A stretch of DNA of 64,000 bases, from positions 682,001-746,000 of the forward strand of contig NC_009718.1 of NCBI RefSeq assembly GCF_000017545.1. Direction: 5' to 3'. This document shows positions 33,465 through 38,851 of this stretch, one piece after another. The translations under genes and the position numbers were made by a program. Position 1 is the first letter of the stretch; the number at the start of each line of letters is the position of its first letter. The notes below the pieces were generated by a model. It worked only from the letters and a program-made list of their open reading frames with translations, made no database searches and had not been told where the DNA came from. This DNA comes from Fervidobacterium nodosum Rt17-B1. Lineage in GTDB: Bacteria; Thermotogota; Thermotogae; Thermotogales; Fervidobacteriaceae.

Positions 33465-34133
33465 TTACTTTTTTGCTTCTTCAATTACACTATTTAAAGC
33501 TTTGAAGAAATCAACACCGTTTTTCCCAAGTTCTTCAATTTGCTTTGATATTTCTTCATTCGACATTGCCATTTGCTTTGCTATCTCGATTGCTCCTTCT
33601 GGGTCAAAGACAAGGAGAACATTCGTGTAAACTACATTACCGACGTATTCTTCCCAAATCGCGTAGATATAAGTTCCGGAAAATTCGTCACTTGAAAACA
33701 TCTCAGTGACGCTTTTGTACGCTTCCATCGCAATTGCAACTATTTGCTGACTTGCACCTTTTTGTTGAATTTGTCCCTCAACTAGTTGTTTAAATGTTGA
33801 AACCTTCGTATTGAAATATTCTGATAATTCTTTTAACGCGTTAACTTTTGCTTTTTCACGCGCTTTTACCGTATCAAATCCACCGCCAATAGACTCTCCA
33901 CGAAATGTTAAGAGTTTCCCCTTTATATAAAGTTCTTTAACACGATTTTCCATAGGATTGTTTATGTAGACTATCTTGGCTTCTCTAGATATAGATTGAA
34001 TTTTTACACCCGCGGCCGTTATCCATTGATAATCCTCTTTGGATTTGAGCACTAAAAATATCAAGATACCTCCTACAATCAAAGCGGTAATTACGGCTAT
34101 TGTTAACCAATTCTGAGATAAGAAGTTATCCAC
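33465..34133 (-). CDS. Membrane-anchored LPP20-like protein, third paralogue
   Basis: 222 residues: one N-terminal membrane helix (about 8-28) and an extracytoplasmic domain. It shares with the two paralogues in this cluster the blocks STFKQLVEGQIQ, QQIVAIAMEAYKSVTEMF, GTYIYAIWEEYV, LLVFDPEG and GVDFFKALNSVIEEA. The pattern resembles the LPP20 family, which includes flagellar FlgP-type envelope proteins, but the match is by layout only. GTG 34133 is chosen because GGAGG is eight bases upstream; TTG 34148 would precede it. Last gene of the cluster. Confidence 0.65.
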   Translation of the reverse strand: MDNFLSQNWLTIAVITALIVGGILIFLVLKSKEDYQWITAAGVKIQSISREAKIVYINNPMENRVKELYIKGKLLTFRGESIGGGFDTVKAREKAKVNALKELSEYFNTKVSTFKQLVEGQIQQKGASQQIVAIAMEAYKSVTEMFSSDEFSGTYIYAIWEEYVGNVVYTNVLLVFDPEGAIEIAKQMAMSNEEISKQIEELGKNGVDFFKALNSVIEEAKK

Positions 34134-34178
34134 ATCTCTCACCTCCAAAGTTATTGCTTAATCATCCTCTGGTATAAA

Positions 34179-35351
34179 CTAGAAATACACTCCCAATTGG
34201 AAGCTTATTCCAGTTGGTCCACTCGTACCTAGGTACAAATTGTATCCAAGTCCTCCGTAAATTCCAAATTTTGGATTAAATTCATAAGTACCTACTCCAC
34301 CCACAAAAACTCCGTAAATAGCTCCAACAAAGTCTGTGGTGTTTAAATCAAATAAGCCTATTAAGCTTATGCCACCGCTTACAATACCACCAAATCTGTC
34401 AACCTCAAGTAATTTCATTCCAACACCAACATTAAGATAAACAGGTGTGTAACCTAAGATTTCACCAATGAAAGTTCCCATGCTTGCATAAAGTGGTAAA
34501 GGTATCTCGCCACTTGCATCAGTCCAAGCTGTCACACCTAATCCAAATAAACCAGAGAACATCGATAATCCAAGCCCGGCGTGCGCCGGCAGCGTTGGAA
34601 ATTCTTGCGCTACATCGTAAACCTCCGGCCTTTCACCATACATAAATTTCGCAACAACGCTTCCAGTCTCTTTGTCATATCCTGTTACCTTTGCATACCC
34701 GACACCTGTCGCGGTCTCTATTTGGAATATAAAACCAACCTTTGCAAGCTTCGGATCTATACCCGCAAGTAATATTTTGTCTCCTTGAATGGATTTTACG
34801 TATGCTTCCAGTTTAAATATATTTCTCAACTCGAGCCAAATTGATGATGCCGTAGATTTTAATGCATCGGATATCGCTTTCTGGGATGTCTCCTTAGAAC
34901 TCCCTGTGGATTCCATCGATTTAGAAGCAAGCAATTCGCCATTTTCAATATTGTAAAGCTTTATAGTATACCTAGAGACTGCTTGATAACTATTTGTTTT
35001 ACTACTCCAAGAAGCCGAGAGTTCAGTTAAAGTTAAAAGTAAAGCATATTTCGAACCACCCAATTTACCGATTTCCACCGCTTCGGAGACACCTAATTCA
35101 GTAAGATTTCTCTCTTTTAAAATTTTTTCTAAGTCTGCCCTTGGAAAGAGTTGGAATCTGCCAAGTTCAAGGGCTTGTTCCTCTAAAATGGACAGTAAGT
35201 AATCTACTTCGTCCATATTCCAGCCGTTTCCAATTTTTGCAGGAAGTATGACAAGCTTTATTTTTTCAGTTACTGTAATACCACCAGCAGCATTTAATAT
35301 CGAAACAAGTAAAACTGTTAATATAAAGGTTATTAATAGTAATTTCTTCAT
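34179..35351 (-). CDS. CsgG-like protein with barrel-like C-terminal region
   Basis: 390 residues with a signal peptide (about 1-21). Residues ~28-170 resemble the CsgG/LpoB N-terminal fold: KLVILPAKIGNGWNMDEVDYLLSILEEQ, FPRADLEKILKERNLTELGVSEAVEIGKLGGSKYALLLTL. After a linker domain, the last ~150 residues are Gly- and aromatic-rich beta strands (YINLGVG-like repeats) ending in LGVYF, the terminal aromatic typical of outer-membrane beta-barrel proteins. A toga-associated outer-membrane protein is inferred. Sandwiched between LPP20-like genes. Confidence 0.65.
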   Translation of the reverse strand: MKKLLLITFILTVLLVSILNAAGGITVTEKIKLVILPAKIGNGWNMDEVDYLLSILEEQALELGRFQLFPRADLEKILKERNLTELGVSEAVEIGKLGGSKYALLLTLTELSASWSSKTNSYQAVSRYTIKLYNIENGELLASKSMESTGSSKETSQKAISDALKSTASSIWLELRNIFKLEAYVKSIQGDKILLAGIDPKLAKVGFIFQIETATGVGYAKVTGYDKETGSVVAKFMYGERPEVYDVAQEFPTLPAHAGLGLSMFSGLFGLGVTAWTDASGEIPLPLYASMGTFIGEILGYTPVYLNVGVGMKLLEVDRFGGIVSGGISLIGLFDLNTTDFVGAIYGVFVGGVGTYEFNPKFGIYGGLGYNLYLGTSGPTGISFQLGVYF

Positions 35352-35383
35352 ATTATCCACCACCCTGAATTATTATTTTTAAT

Positions 35384-38101
35384 TTACTTTGTAACTATGT
35401 ACTCGTAATCGCTAACTTTCTTTACTTTCACAGAAGTCAAAGAGTTGAAGAATTTTTCCATTTCTGGCATATCAATGTCAATTTCAATTACCAATTTTTT
35501 GTCAGTATTTTCAATCACTTTCAATGAAGCATATTTTGCTTTTAATGCATCAAGAAGCATGGCACTGTATGCTGCCCGCTCCGGTGTGAATGTGTATCTG
35601 TAAGCTTTTGAAATTTCTACATTCTCAAAATTTAAAGAATTAATTATCTTTTGGATATATGCTTGGAAATTTGAAGAATTAACAATTTTCGAAAGTGCAG
35701 CTTGAATTGTTGCACCTGAATTCGTTTCTTCGTAATTTTGGGCAGAAACTATATTTCCCGTTATTGAATCGATGATTTGAGTATTTACAAGCATTCTGAC
35801 TGAGTAAAGCTTATATTCAGAAAGATATGTCGACGGCGCGTTGACTTTTGTGTATATCAAGTATCTTGCAGCTGATAGAGCTGCATATTTCGCAACTATC
35901 GTTGAGTTGTAACCCAATTTGTACTGCTCTTCAAGTATCTTCTTTGAAAAATCTTTAGAAACGAGCTTTACTCCTGCCGATAGTATTCTTTCAATCATCA
36001 TTGATTCAACATAGCCATTTTCATCGCCTTCTACTATCAACAGTGCAAATCCAGAAGGTGCGGTTTTTAAAGCGTACTCTATGTCTTTTTCAAATCTTGA
36101 TTTACTTATTTTCGCATCAACGACTACGTAATAAAGGTTCTGATACTCTCCAGAAGCGGTGATTTCATAGTCAATTCCTGCCAAAACTCTATCCAATATG
36201 TAATCATCAACGGGAACGTTAAGTAATTCCTTGTTCTCACCTATTAATACTTCAGCCGCAGCTTTCTTGACTATCTTTATAAGTGCGTCTTTTGTTGCAT
36301 TTTTTCTCATCGCATTTTGGTCAGTAATTATTTTTGCAGTACCCCCTGCGAGGATTCTTAGAGTGTCTCCCTCTCTTGTAACCACTCTCAGTACATCCGG
36401 ATTAACACTGACTTTCCCTGGTGCCCATGTTGCGGATACAATTCCCGCTAGAGTAACTGTTAGCTTCGAATTTACCGATTTGACTACGCCTGAAAGTTGT
36501 GTAGTACCATCTTTCAAACTTATCAAATCTGGGTTCTCTGTATTTTCGCCAATAACCCTTAAAAGTGTTATTGTATTCGGTTGAACCTTTACGGAAATTG
36601 TTACCTGCTCTCCTATAATCGTTTCAGAAGGTCCTGATAATTCAATTTTTACATCGCTTAGATAAGACCTTAACGATTCTCTATTAATCAACTCCGAAGG
36701 TAAATCTATTGCCATCGCGTCGATTTCATTAATCATCTGTGCAACTTTTATAGCACTGTCTTTATCTACTATTTTTGTAGAATTTACATTGTTAACCATC
36801 ATTGAAACTTGATTATACTTATTTTTTATACTTCCAACAATCATAGATAACTCTTCAGAAATTCTTGGTGGAAATTTGTATTTTCCAAGTATCGGTTCGT
36901 ATTTGTCAACAATTCTTTTCGCTGTGTAAATCATCTTTGATGCGAGTAATGAATTTCCAAGTCTTATTGACACAAAAGCTTCAAAAGTTTGTCTTGCAAC
37001 ATCCGCATCAACATATGCTTCCGCTTTTGCATAATATTTACCTTCAACCGCTTTCTTATCGACTATTTTGTAAACAACATCCATAAACTCGAATTCCGTC
37101 TTTGTTTGAATTGTCTTTTCATATTCGCTCTGGAATTTTTCTTTAACTTTGTTATCAACTATAAGTTGGCTTAATTGGTCTTTCAATATTGCAGAAGATT
37201 TAACTTCAACGTACAATTGCTCTGACAAATTGCTTAGAGCGTTCTTTTTGGCACTTTCTTCCGCTTCAATTTCAGTTTTACCATATGCTTCACCGATACC
37301 TTTTATGTAATTAGATGGTATATTTACTTGAGCGGGTGAAGTTGGTGAAATTGGCTGTGTTGGTTGACTCGGTTGACTTGGTTGGGTAGGTTGAATAGGT
37401 TGCTGTACTTGGTCCGTTGGTTTGGACGGTTCAGATGGTTTACTTTCCAAAGGAGTACCTTTGTAAGCCTCTTCTATAACACTGTTAAGTGCACCGAAAA
37501 AATTCACCCCTAAGCTACTTAAACTTGAAATAGCAGAATCTATCTCTGGTTGCATCTGTATATATTTTTTCACGTCCTCTGGATCGTAAACTAGAAGGGC
37601 GTAAGTTTTCACAATATTACCTTCTTTGACTCTCCAATATGCGTAAACGTACGCACCGGAAATACGTGCTTGAGCAAACAGTTCGGTAACTCTTTTGTAA
37701 GCATCTACTGAAGCAGAAACTATTTGTTGCTTGTTTTGAGAAGTTGAAACACTTTGAAGTTGACCTTCAACAAGCTGCGCAAAAGTACTTACCCTTGCGT
37801 TTAGCATCTCCGCCAAATTGGAAAAAGCTCTAATCTTTGCCATTTCTTTTTCTTGTAGAGTTCCTGTCCCTTGGGCTTCACCTACGAAAGTGATTAGTTT
37901 GTTTTCTCTCATTAGTTGTGCTACGGCTTTTTCCTTAGCCGTGTTTTTCTCTATTATCTCAGCATTTACTGATATTTTTTGGATTTTAACACCATCAGCT
38001 TCTATCCATTTTTCTTGTGGTTGACCAAGAATAAAAAAAGCCCCTAGGGCAACTACAACAACAAGTGCTAAACCCATGATTATAAATAAATTATTTTCCA
38101 T
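35384..38101 (-). CDS. Large envelope protein with LPP20-like, Ig-like and CsgG/TolB-like regions
   Basis: 905 residues. A membrane helix (about 7-25) and an LPP20-like module (to ~220) nearly identical in key blocks to the 221-residue neighbour; a Pro/Ser/Gln/Thr linker (~222-258); a second LPP20-like segment (~262-375: GIGEAYGKTEIEAEESAKKNALSNLSEQL); a helical stretch; an Ig-like beta segment (~500-590); a third LPP20-like segment (~595-690: RKNATKDALIKIVKKAAAEVL); and a C-terminal CsgG/TolB-like region. The combination recalls FlgT-type flagellar outer-ring proteins but no flagellar gene is nearby. Domain edges are by eye. Confidence 0.62.
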   Translation of the reverse strand: MENNLFIIMGLALVVVVALGAFFILGQPQEKWIEADGVKIQKISVNAEIIEKNTAKEKAVAQLMRENKLITFVGEAQGTGTLQEKEMAKIRAFSNLAEMLNARVSTFAQLVEGQLQSVSTSQNKQQIVSASVDAYKRVTELFAQARISGAYVYAYWRVKEGNIVKTYALLVYDPEDVKKYIQMQPEIDSAISSLSSLGVNFFGALNSVIEEAYKGTPLESKPSEPSKPTDQVQQPIQPTQPSQPSQPTQPISPTSPAQVNIPSNYIKGIGEAYGKTEIEAEESAKKNALSNLSEQLYVEVKSSAILKDQLSQLIVDNKVKEKFQSEYEKTIQTKTEFEFMDVVYKIVDKKAVEGKYYAKAEAYVDADVARQTFEAFVSIRLGNSLLASKMIYTAKRIVDKYEPILGKYKFPPRISEELSMIVGSIKNKYNQVSMMVNNVNSTKIVDKDSAIKVAQMINEIDAMAIDLPSELINRESLRSYLSDVKIELSGPSETIIGEQVTISVKVQPNTITLLRVIGENTENPDLISLKDGTTQLSGVVKSVNSKLTVTLAGIVSATWAPGKVSVNPDVLRVVTREGDTLRILAGGTAKIITDQNAMRKNATKDALIKIVKKAAAEVLIGENKELLNVPVDDYILDRVLAGIDYEITASGEYQNLYYVVVDAKISKSRFEKDIEYALKTAPSGFALLIVEGDENGYVESMMIERILSAGVKLVSKDFSKKILEEQYKLGYNSTIVAKYAALSAARYLIYTKVNAPSTYLSEYKLYSVRMLVNTQIIDSITGNIVSAQNYEETNSGATIQAALSKIVNSSNFQAYIQKIINSLNFENVEISKAYRYTFTPERAAYSAMLLDALKAKYASLKVIENTDKKLVIEIDIDMPEMEKFFNSLTSVKVKKVSDYEYIVTK

Positions 38102-38148
38102 TAGTTCACCTCCCGATTAAAAACAAAAAGTGGAAATAAATAAAATAA

Positions 38149-38170
38149 CCCCCTGCCGCTTTGCAGGGGG
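38149..38170 (-). terminator. Hairpin between the first two LPP20-like genes
   Basis: Stem CCCCCTGC/GCAGGGGG with loop of six bases, followed on the minus strand by TTATTTTATTT. It likely acts as a partial terminator setting the ratio of the small protein to the downstream genes. Confidence 0.8.
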
Positions 38171-38185
38171 CTTAAAAAAAGAGAA

Positions 38186-38851
38186 TTATTTTTTCTCCAT
38201 CGGTGTTCCTTTCGTTGCTTCCATCATAACAGAATTCAAACCTTCAAAGAAATTCACACCTTGTTTTGCAAGCTCATCAACTACTTGCTTGACCTGTGCA
38301 TCCATTTCCACTATCTTTAAAATAGACGCTGGATCATAAACAAGCAAGGAATAAGTATTCACAACATTATTTTTCGTAACTCTCCATACCGCAAAGACAT
38401 ACGCACCTGAAATTCTTGCGTCCGCAAACATTTGTGTAACTCTCTTGTAGGCGTCTACAGATGCACTCACTATCTGCTGCTTATTTCCACTCACTTGAAC
38501 ATTTTGAAGCTGACCTTCAACCAATTGCGCAAACGTTTCTACTTTCGCATTCAAAAATTCTGCAATCTGCTGGTATGCTCTTATTTTAGCTTTCTCTTGA
38601 TCTTGCGATGTTCCAGTGCCTTGAGCTTCTCCAACAAATGCAATTAGTTGGTTCTTTTGTTTTAATGATTTTACAGCATTTGCCTGAGCTTGGTTTATAA
38701 ATATTACCTCTGCATCGTTTGGAATTTGCCAAATCTTTACTCCATCAACTTCGATGTATTTCTCCTTAGGCATCAATAAGAAAATTCCACCCACTACAAG
38801 TACAGCCGCAAGCAAGCCAACGAGAACCCAAGTCATCATGTTGCTATCCAT
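38186..38851 (-). CDS. Membrane-anchored LPP20-like protein, first paralogue
   Basis: 221 residues: N-terminal helix (about 7-27) and one extracytoplasmic module. Shared blocks with the 905-residue neighbour include FVGEAQGTGT, TFAQLVEGQLQ, NKQQIVSASVDAYKRVT, ARISGAYV and LLVYDP, much closer than to the third paralogue, pointing to recent duplication. Good AAAGGAGGG ribosome-binding site. First gene of the four-gene cluster and probably the most expressed, given the hairpin after it. Confidence 0.68.
   Translation of the reverse strand: MDSNMMTWVLVGLLAAVLVVGGIFLLMPKEKYIEVDGVKIWQIPNDAEVIFINQAQANAVKSLKQKNQLIAFVGEAQGTGTSQDQEKAKIRAYQQIAEFLNAKVETFAQLVEGQLQNVQVSGNKQQIVSASVDAYKRVTQMFADARISGAYVFAVWRVTKNNVVNTYSLLVYDPASILKIVEMDAQVKQVVDELAKQGVNFFEGLNSVMMEATKGTPMEKK

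Follow-up and report, generated by a model that had tools for sequence, protein, structure and literature searches.

What do four adjacent genes build in the cell envelope of Fervidobacterium nodosum Rt17-B1? We analyzed a stretch of 64,000 nucleotides of its genome (hereafter the window; positions 682001-746000 of a single contig of 1,948,941 bases). A preliminary description had marked four genes at 33465-38851 of the window as an envelope cluster built on three copies of one LPP20-like module. The open reading frames are as claimed, and all lie on the minus strand. The first gene (module 1, 38186..38851) encodes 221 amino acids with an N-terminal transmembrane (TM) segment at about residues 9-27 and one LPP20/SHS2-like domain, and is preceded by the Shine-Dalgarno sequence AAAGGAGGG. 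It is followed by the gene for a large protein (35384..38101; 905 amino acids), which consists of a TM segment, a second module, a linker and a multidomain core. Next comes a CsgG/FlgT-like outer-membrane protein (34179..35351; 390 amino acids), which probably starts at ATG 35351 within the reading frame 34179-35363. The last gene (module 3, 33465..34133; about 222 amino acids) again encodes a TM segment and an LPP20-like domain. Its reading frame opens at TTG 34148, but because this TTG overlaps the Shine-Dalgarno sequence, GTG 34133 (VDN...) is the likelier start. From module 1 to module 3 the gaps are only 84, 20, and 30 bases, so the four genes probably form one operon, which is preceded by an intergenic region of 190 bases.

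We compared the three modules with each other and found that their likeness is far beyond chance (BLASTP over more than 200 residues; identities of 57%, 42%, and 43%, with E-values of 1e-80, 9e-51, and 9e-46). Thus, the cluster does hold three copies of one anchored module, one of them fused to the large protein. The sequence blocks that had been quoted as common to all three recur with few or no changes in module 1 and in the fused module (module 2), but are degenerate in module 3, where they read TFKQLVEGQIQ, QQIVAIAMEAYKSVT, and GVDFFKALNSVIEEA. Module 3 is the most diverged of the three; in the module tree, modules 1 and 2 are sisters and module 3 stands outside, and a tandem triplication in family f11 is separate. 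A fourth, divergent module (19% identity) was found elsewhere in the same genome beside a response regulator (864 kb; L054:6098-6745), and its orthologue in genome G006 (L100:5060-5704) has the same response-regulator context.

Pfam and NCBIfam searches with the four window proteins alone gave sub-threshold matches only; DYN_lid, LEDGF, YcaO, and other unrelated names were judged to be chance, and a sequence search of the PDB matched only a lectin (spurious) and a tegument protein. Single-sequence Pfam searches of the modules found LPP20 in one of 21 (E 0.07). When a profile of 35 module sequences was compared by hhalign with a set of LPP20-type domains, including the core domain of the large protein and Pfam-supported repeats, the alignment covered 107 of 118 columns, with a probability of 91% and an E-value of 1.2e-6. 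Reversed controls were insignificant (E 0.3-0.5), and the module profile gave no significant pairing with the other domain types compared by hhalign. The link between module and core was weak at first (probability 45%) and became strong only with the wider module set. In the alignment, the GEAxGxG...AKxxAYxxLAExLN block of the modules falls on the G-E-G...AkxxALxxlsEQ block of LPP20. In the AlphaFold model of the large protein, the elements of module 2 follow one another as they do in the core LPP20 domain (strand, helices, strand, strand; pLDDT about 70-88). Sequence profiles and the order of secondary structure therefore support the assignment of the module as a remote LPP20 homologue, and the LPP20-like nature first proposed for it stands at a profile-profile E-value of about 1e-6.

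A terminator-like hairpin (38147..38172, minus strand) lies directly after the stop codon of module 1, with a stem of 10 bp and a T-rich tail. It is kept in all nine loci that have this junction, always as a GC-rich stem of 9-12 bp with a T-rich tail. Three of the ten pairs change on both sides in a compensatory way, and the covariation exceeded that of 500/500 shuffled and all slid controls; six pairs are invariant across the loci, so that conservation alone accounts for part of the signal. The hairpin occurs once in the genome of the window, and it is the sole internal terminator-like hairpin in eight operons scanned, where the other hairpins stand at the operon end. Such conservation suggests a partial terminator, which would trim transcription after module 1 so that this module is made in excess.

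We then divided the large protein into domains, all given on the minus strand. Module 2 (37460..38101, residues 1-214) is followed by a linker rich in proline, glutamine, and serine (37325..37459, residues 215-259; pLDDT under 50), and the core begins with an LPP20 domain (36965..37324, residues 260-379). PF02169 matches this domain in 11 of 14 orthologous members (best E 8.7e-7) and exceeds its curated cut-off in core orthologues of five genomes, whereas the window protein itself reaches 15.5 bits against a cut-off of 25.9. In structural comparison (VIA), the modeled domain matched H. pylori HP1454 (4kzs; Z 7.0) and Lpp20 (5ok8; Z 6.7, 98/114 residues); these Z-scores are modest, and the Lpp20 match coincides in the model with the Pfam match. 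The core domain of the large protein has the Lpp20 fold. A helical domain (36662..36964, residues 380-480; pLDDT 77-94) and an Ig-like beta-sandwich (36401..36661, residues 481-567; best Z 8.0) come next, in agreement with the Pro-rich linker and Ig-like region described before. Ig domains of antibodies dominated the structural matches when the model of the large protein was compared with the PDB.

The following two domains are assigned from sequence, because the pLDDT of the model, one of several built on 2-8 sequences, is below 50 for residues 565-832. These are a FlgT_N-like (LPP20-type) domain (36062..36388, residues 572-680) and a TolB-N/CsgG-like domain (35606..36046, residues 686-832). 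The Pfam family FlgT_N was matched in four of 14 large proteins (best E 7.9e-6), and full-length FlgT_N and FlgT_M were seen together in no single protein. The TolB-like profile of the large protein matched relatives of the CsgG-barrel protein in L082 (7e-7) and L085 (5e-5), which indicates that the large protein and the CsgG-barrel protein share a TolB/CsgG-like domain; the CsgG/TolB-like region announced earlier is thereby supported. The protein ends with an alpha/beta domain (35387..35605, residues 833-905; beta-alpha-beta-beta-alpha-beta, pLDDT about 90).

The make-up of the large protein is variable. In Thermosipho-type genomes the core is present without the module, and in genomes G001-G004 only the TM segment and linker are left before it. 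In families f3 and f11, its two halves are encoded separately, one on either side of a gene for a VWA protein whose LPP20 repeats are supported by Pfam. This trio of a TolB-like protein, a VWA protein with two LPP20 repeats, and an LPP20-helical-Ig protein (L084:6946-12433, with TPR; L087:3436-8814; L081) is related to the large protein but divided among several genes. A lipoprotein of 1365 amino acids in G007 (L052:3287-7384) joins an LPP20-helical-Ig-FlgT_N-like core to many FN3-like repeats.

On which side of the membrane do these proteins lie? The N-terminal tails of the module TM segments have a net charge of -1 or -2, and the positive-inside rule gives no support for an N-in/C-out orientation. 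The relatives are more informative. Thermosipho-type core proteins carry an LFSC lipobox instead of the TM segment, and the module homologues of families f10 and f11 (genomes G100, G101, G063, and G061) are lipoproteins with LNSC, LTSC, LAGC, or FTAC. In the window protein, the fused module and the core sit on the same side of one TM segment. Because relatives carry a lipobox in place of the membrane anchor, there is a strong case that modules and core are periplasmic. It is well supported that the modules and the large protein combine LPP20-type with Ig-like and TolB/CsgG-type domains on N-terminal anchors in the periplasm. Some relatives stand next to barrels, as judged by eye from the sequence: one G063 protein has a barrel-like N-terminal part that continues into a module, and G061 and G064 each have a barrel-like gene ending in Phe with the gene for a module lipoprotein after it. 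The G063 locus (family f10; L096:634-7998) encodes a module lipoprotein, the barrel-like and module fusion, an LPP20-looking lipoprotein, a protein with a caspase domain (Peptidase_C14, E 2.6e-5), and a large lipoprotein with FN3.

The third gene of the operon encodes a signal peptide, a CsgG-like domain (residues 30-182), a small beta domain (184-237), and a barrel of exactly eight strands (253-390) with a terminal Phe, in a model that rests on two sequences. PF03783 (CsgG) matches nine of nine orthologues (best E 1.5e-7), and the window protein scores 18.5 bits against a cut-off of 20.8. The modeled CsgG-like domain matched FlgT-M best (VIA; Z 12.5 for 8z5n and 12.3 for 3w1e), followed by PelC (12.1), TolB-N (10.8), and CsgG (10.4), and FlgT was the best match in Foldseek as well. 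The barrel matched OprF (Z 16.1) and OmpA (15.5) over 125-128 residues, as well as OmpW (within 15.5-16.1), and the C-terminal residue is Phe in nine of nine orthologues. The C-terminal part is thus predicted to have the fold of an OmpA-type eight-stranded outer-membrane barrel. That the protein is exported and ends in such a barrel is well supported, and the earlier reading of a CsgG-like protein with a C-terminal barrel ending in Phe is borne out. Structure prediction and profiles together recovered both the LPP20 and the CsgG/FlgT folds.

The CsgG-like and small beta domains also occur in other settings. They precede FN3 and a DUF5122 beta-propeller in the place of the barrel in G006 (L093:67-2316), and lie within a protein of 794 amino acids in G007 (L094:1148-3532). 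Upstream of the CsgG-barrel gene, two Thermosipho-type loci (L044:2880-5881 and L048:3603-6559) encode a further pair of CsgG/FlgT_C-like proteins whose tails look barrel-like. The two members of the pair are related to each other (hhalign, E 1e-9), and one matches the CsgG-barrel protein from where the CsgG part ends through the small beta domain (E 3e-6).

A CsgG-like protein could form a pore through which an extracellular polymer or fibre is exported, gated from the inner side by the modules and the large protein. The PF03783 match in all nine proteins and the fusion to FN3 and beta-propeller repeats in G006 would suit such a function. In CsgG, however, the pore strands are inserted in the CsgG domain and shared by nine subunits. 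The two-sequence model has instead a closed, separate barrel of the OmpA type after the CsgG domain, with no inserted pore strands of the CsgG type. Moreover, the alignment of the barrel proteins has a plain signal peptide and no lipobox Cys, no curli- or Pel-like substrate genes were recognized beside the gene, and the CsgG-barrel protein is dispensable in G003 and G004. We therefore consider an export pore highly improbable. The proteins could also be LpoB- or TolB-like factors that activate or sense peptidoglycan synthesis or outer-membrane assembly, with TolB/CsgG-type domains that would reach through the periplasm to contact cell-wall enzymes. The TolB-N fold match (Z 10.8) points in this direction, as do weak LpoB matches, with a best E of 0.014 in two CsgG-like members and 0.05 in a single core member. 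However, the LpoB matches are weaker than those to CsgG, no penicillin-binding protein or Tol-Pal gene was recognized beside the cluster, and the three modules and the hairpin are left unexplained, which makes this role rather improbable.

We explored the distribution of the gene set in 103 genomes, all of Thermotogota. The core was found in 22/103, the CsgG-barrel protein in 22/103, and the module in 32/103, with overlaps of 19-21 genomes (Fisher p-values 6e-13, 9e-15, and 4e-11, uncorrected for kinship). All three are absent from G009, from the four genomes of genus g4, and from genera g12 and g13 of family f3; in g10, g11, and g14 of that family they are all present but unlinked. G005, G008, and G010 share the arrangement of the window, with module 1 first, then the fused large protein, then the CsgG-barrel protein, and module 3 last, so the four genes do recur together. 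Genomes G001-G004 have the cluster without the CsgG-barrel gene. G003 and G004 have no CsgG-barrel homologue genome-wide and keep the modules and the large protein; therefore, the CsgG-barrel protein is not an obligatory partner. The gene set is a conserved system whose module, core, and CsgG-barrel protein were gained or lost together in several lineages of Thermotogota.

The same survey bears on a flagellar role, in which the set would form an H-ring or basal-disk-like collar with FlgP-like modules and a FlgT/FlgO-like CsgG-barrel protein and large protein. Among solved structures, flagellar ones come closest (FlgT, 3w1e; the LPHT ring, 8z5n). FlgH is present in 22/22 core genomes and 31/32 module genomes, counts that are uncorrected for kinship, and genus g4, which is without FlgH, has no part of the set either. 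Directly before flgA-flgH-flgI-flgJ, G061 and G064 have a barrel gene and a module lipoprotein (L127:5008-9386; L128). However, this adjacency is absent from five other genomes of their genus and from all other families examined. FlgH is found with none of the set in all of family f2 (Thermotoga-type), in g12 and g13 of f3, and in G009. The window cluster (0.72 Mb) has no flagellar gene context, being far from flgAHI (0.92 Mb) and the flagellins (1.60-1.80 Mb). A flagellar collar, the strongest of the alternative readings, is thus unlikely for this cluster.

We conclude that the cluster is real and encodes a putative envelope assembly of the FlgP/FlgT/CsgG kind, in a variant not described before. 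LPP20 and FlgT-type domains form outer-membrane rings in flagellar motors, and FlgP, Lpp20, and FlgT share a fold (PMC12222027). The best-supported reading, to which we assign a probability of about 0.45, is a ring- or lattice-like periplasmic scaffold that would connect the cytoplasmic membrane with the outer membrane (toga). It is favored by a subunit apparently made in excess, minor fused or diverged copies, inner-side anchors, and an outer-membrane barrel that carries a domain of a ring-forming type. By analogy with FlgP, FlgT, CsgG, and PelC, the LPP20-type and FlgT/CsgG-type domains would assemble into the ring or lattice. CsgG and PelC form rings. Module 1 would be the repeating subunit, and the large protein and module 3 would be low-copy parts that use the fused module to attach the array to the barrel protein. 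As a result, the cytoplasmic membrane would be tied to the toga, or an opening in the toga would be braced. The undescribed complex between cytoplasmic membrane and toga that was originally suggested is plausible, because its parts are predicted to include a periplasmic side, an outer-membrane barrel, and inner-membrane or lipid anchors. A more specific and doubtful version is a non-flagellar machine resembling the H-ring, in which the LPP20 modules would polymerize under the toga, the multidomain linker and the OmpA-type barrel with its FlgT/CsgG domain would tie the membranes, and the internal terminator would set the subunit ratio.

How does the set compare with known systems? FlgP of the Campylobacter basal disk and H. 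pylori Lpp20/HP1454 have in common with the present proteins an LPP20/SHS2-like domain, a membrane anchor, several copies, and, as predicted here, a periplasmic location. However, the modules of Fervidobacterium and Thermosipho use a TM anchor and are longer, with extra helices; one is fused to a core of 650 amino acids, and in the F. nodosum genome the genes lie outside flagellar operons. FlgT of the Vibrio H-ring has LPP20-like FlgT_N and TolB-like FlgT_M domains, which have likely counterparts in the large protein and the barrel protein. Here they are spread over several proteins, with an outer-membrane barrel attached and away from flagellar genes. CsgG (curli secretion) and PelC (Pel export) appear to have the periplasmic CsgG/PelC alpha/beta domain in common with the barrel protein; the latter differs in its own eight-stranded barrel, where CsgG has shared pore strands, in the absence of a lipobox, and in having no recognized substrate genes nearby. 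The known structural parts of the toga in Thermotoga are OmpA1 (Omp-alpha) and OmpB, and the OmpB porins of Thermotogales end in Phe (PMC3387000). The present set is, like them, expected in the envelope, and the terminal Phe of its barrel protein is as in OmpB, but the toga proteins are encoded at other F. nodosum loci (Fnod_1724/1725, Fnod_0047) and belong to other domain families (PMC3387000).

In the open PMC literature, we found neither this arrangement of modules with exchangeable anchors, a fused core, and a FlgT/CsgG domain on an OmpA barrel, nor any paper on Thermosipho and CsgG. The domain families are already known, whereas their arrangement and their place in Thermotogota are undescribed. 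The modules switch between transmembrane and lipid anchors, they fuse and split, and separate lineages have multiplied them in parallel. The domain kit of FlgP, FlgT, and CsgG apparently works here outside flagella and secretion. For the attachment of the toga to the cell, Fervidobacterium and Thermosipho thus offer named candidate proteins, which are absent from Thermotoga-type genomes.
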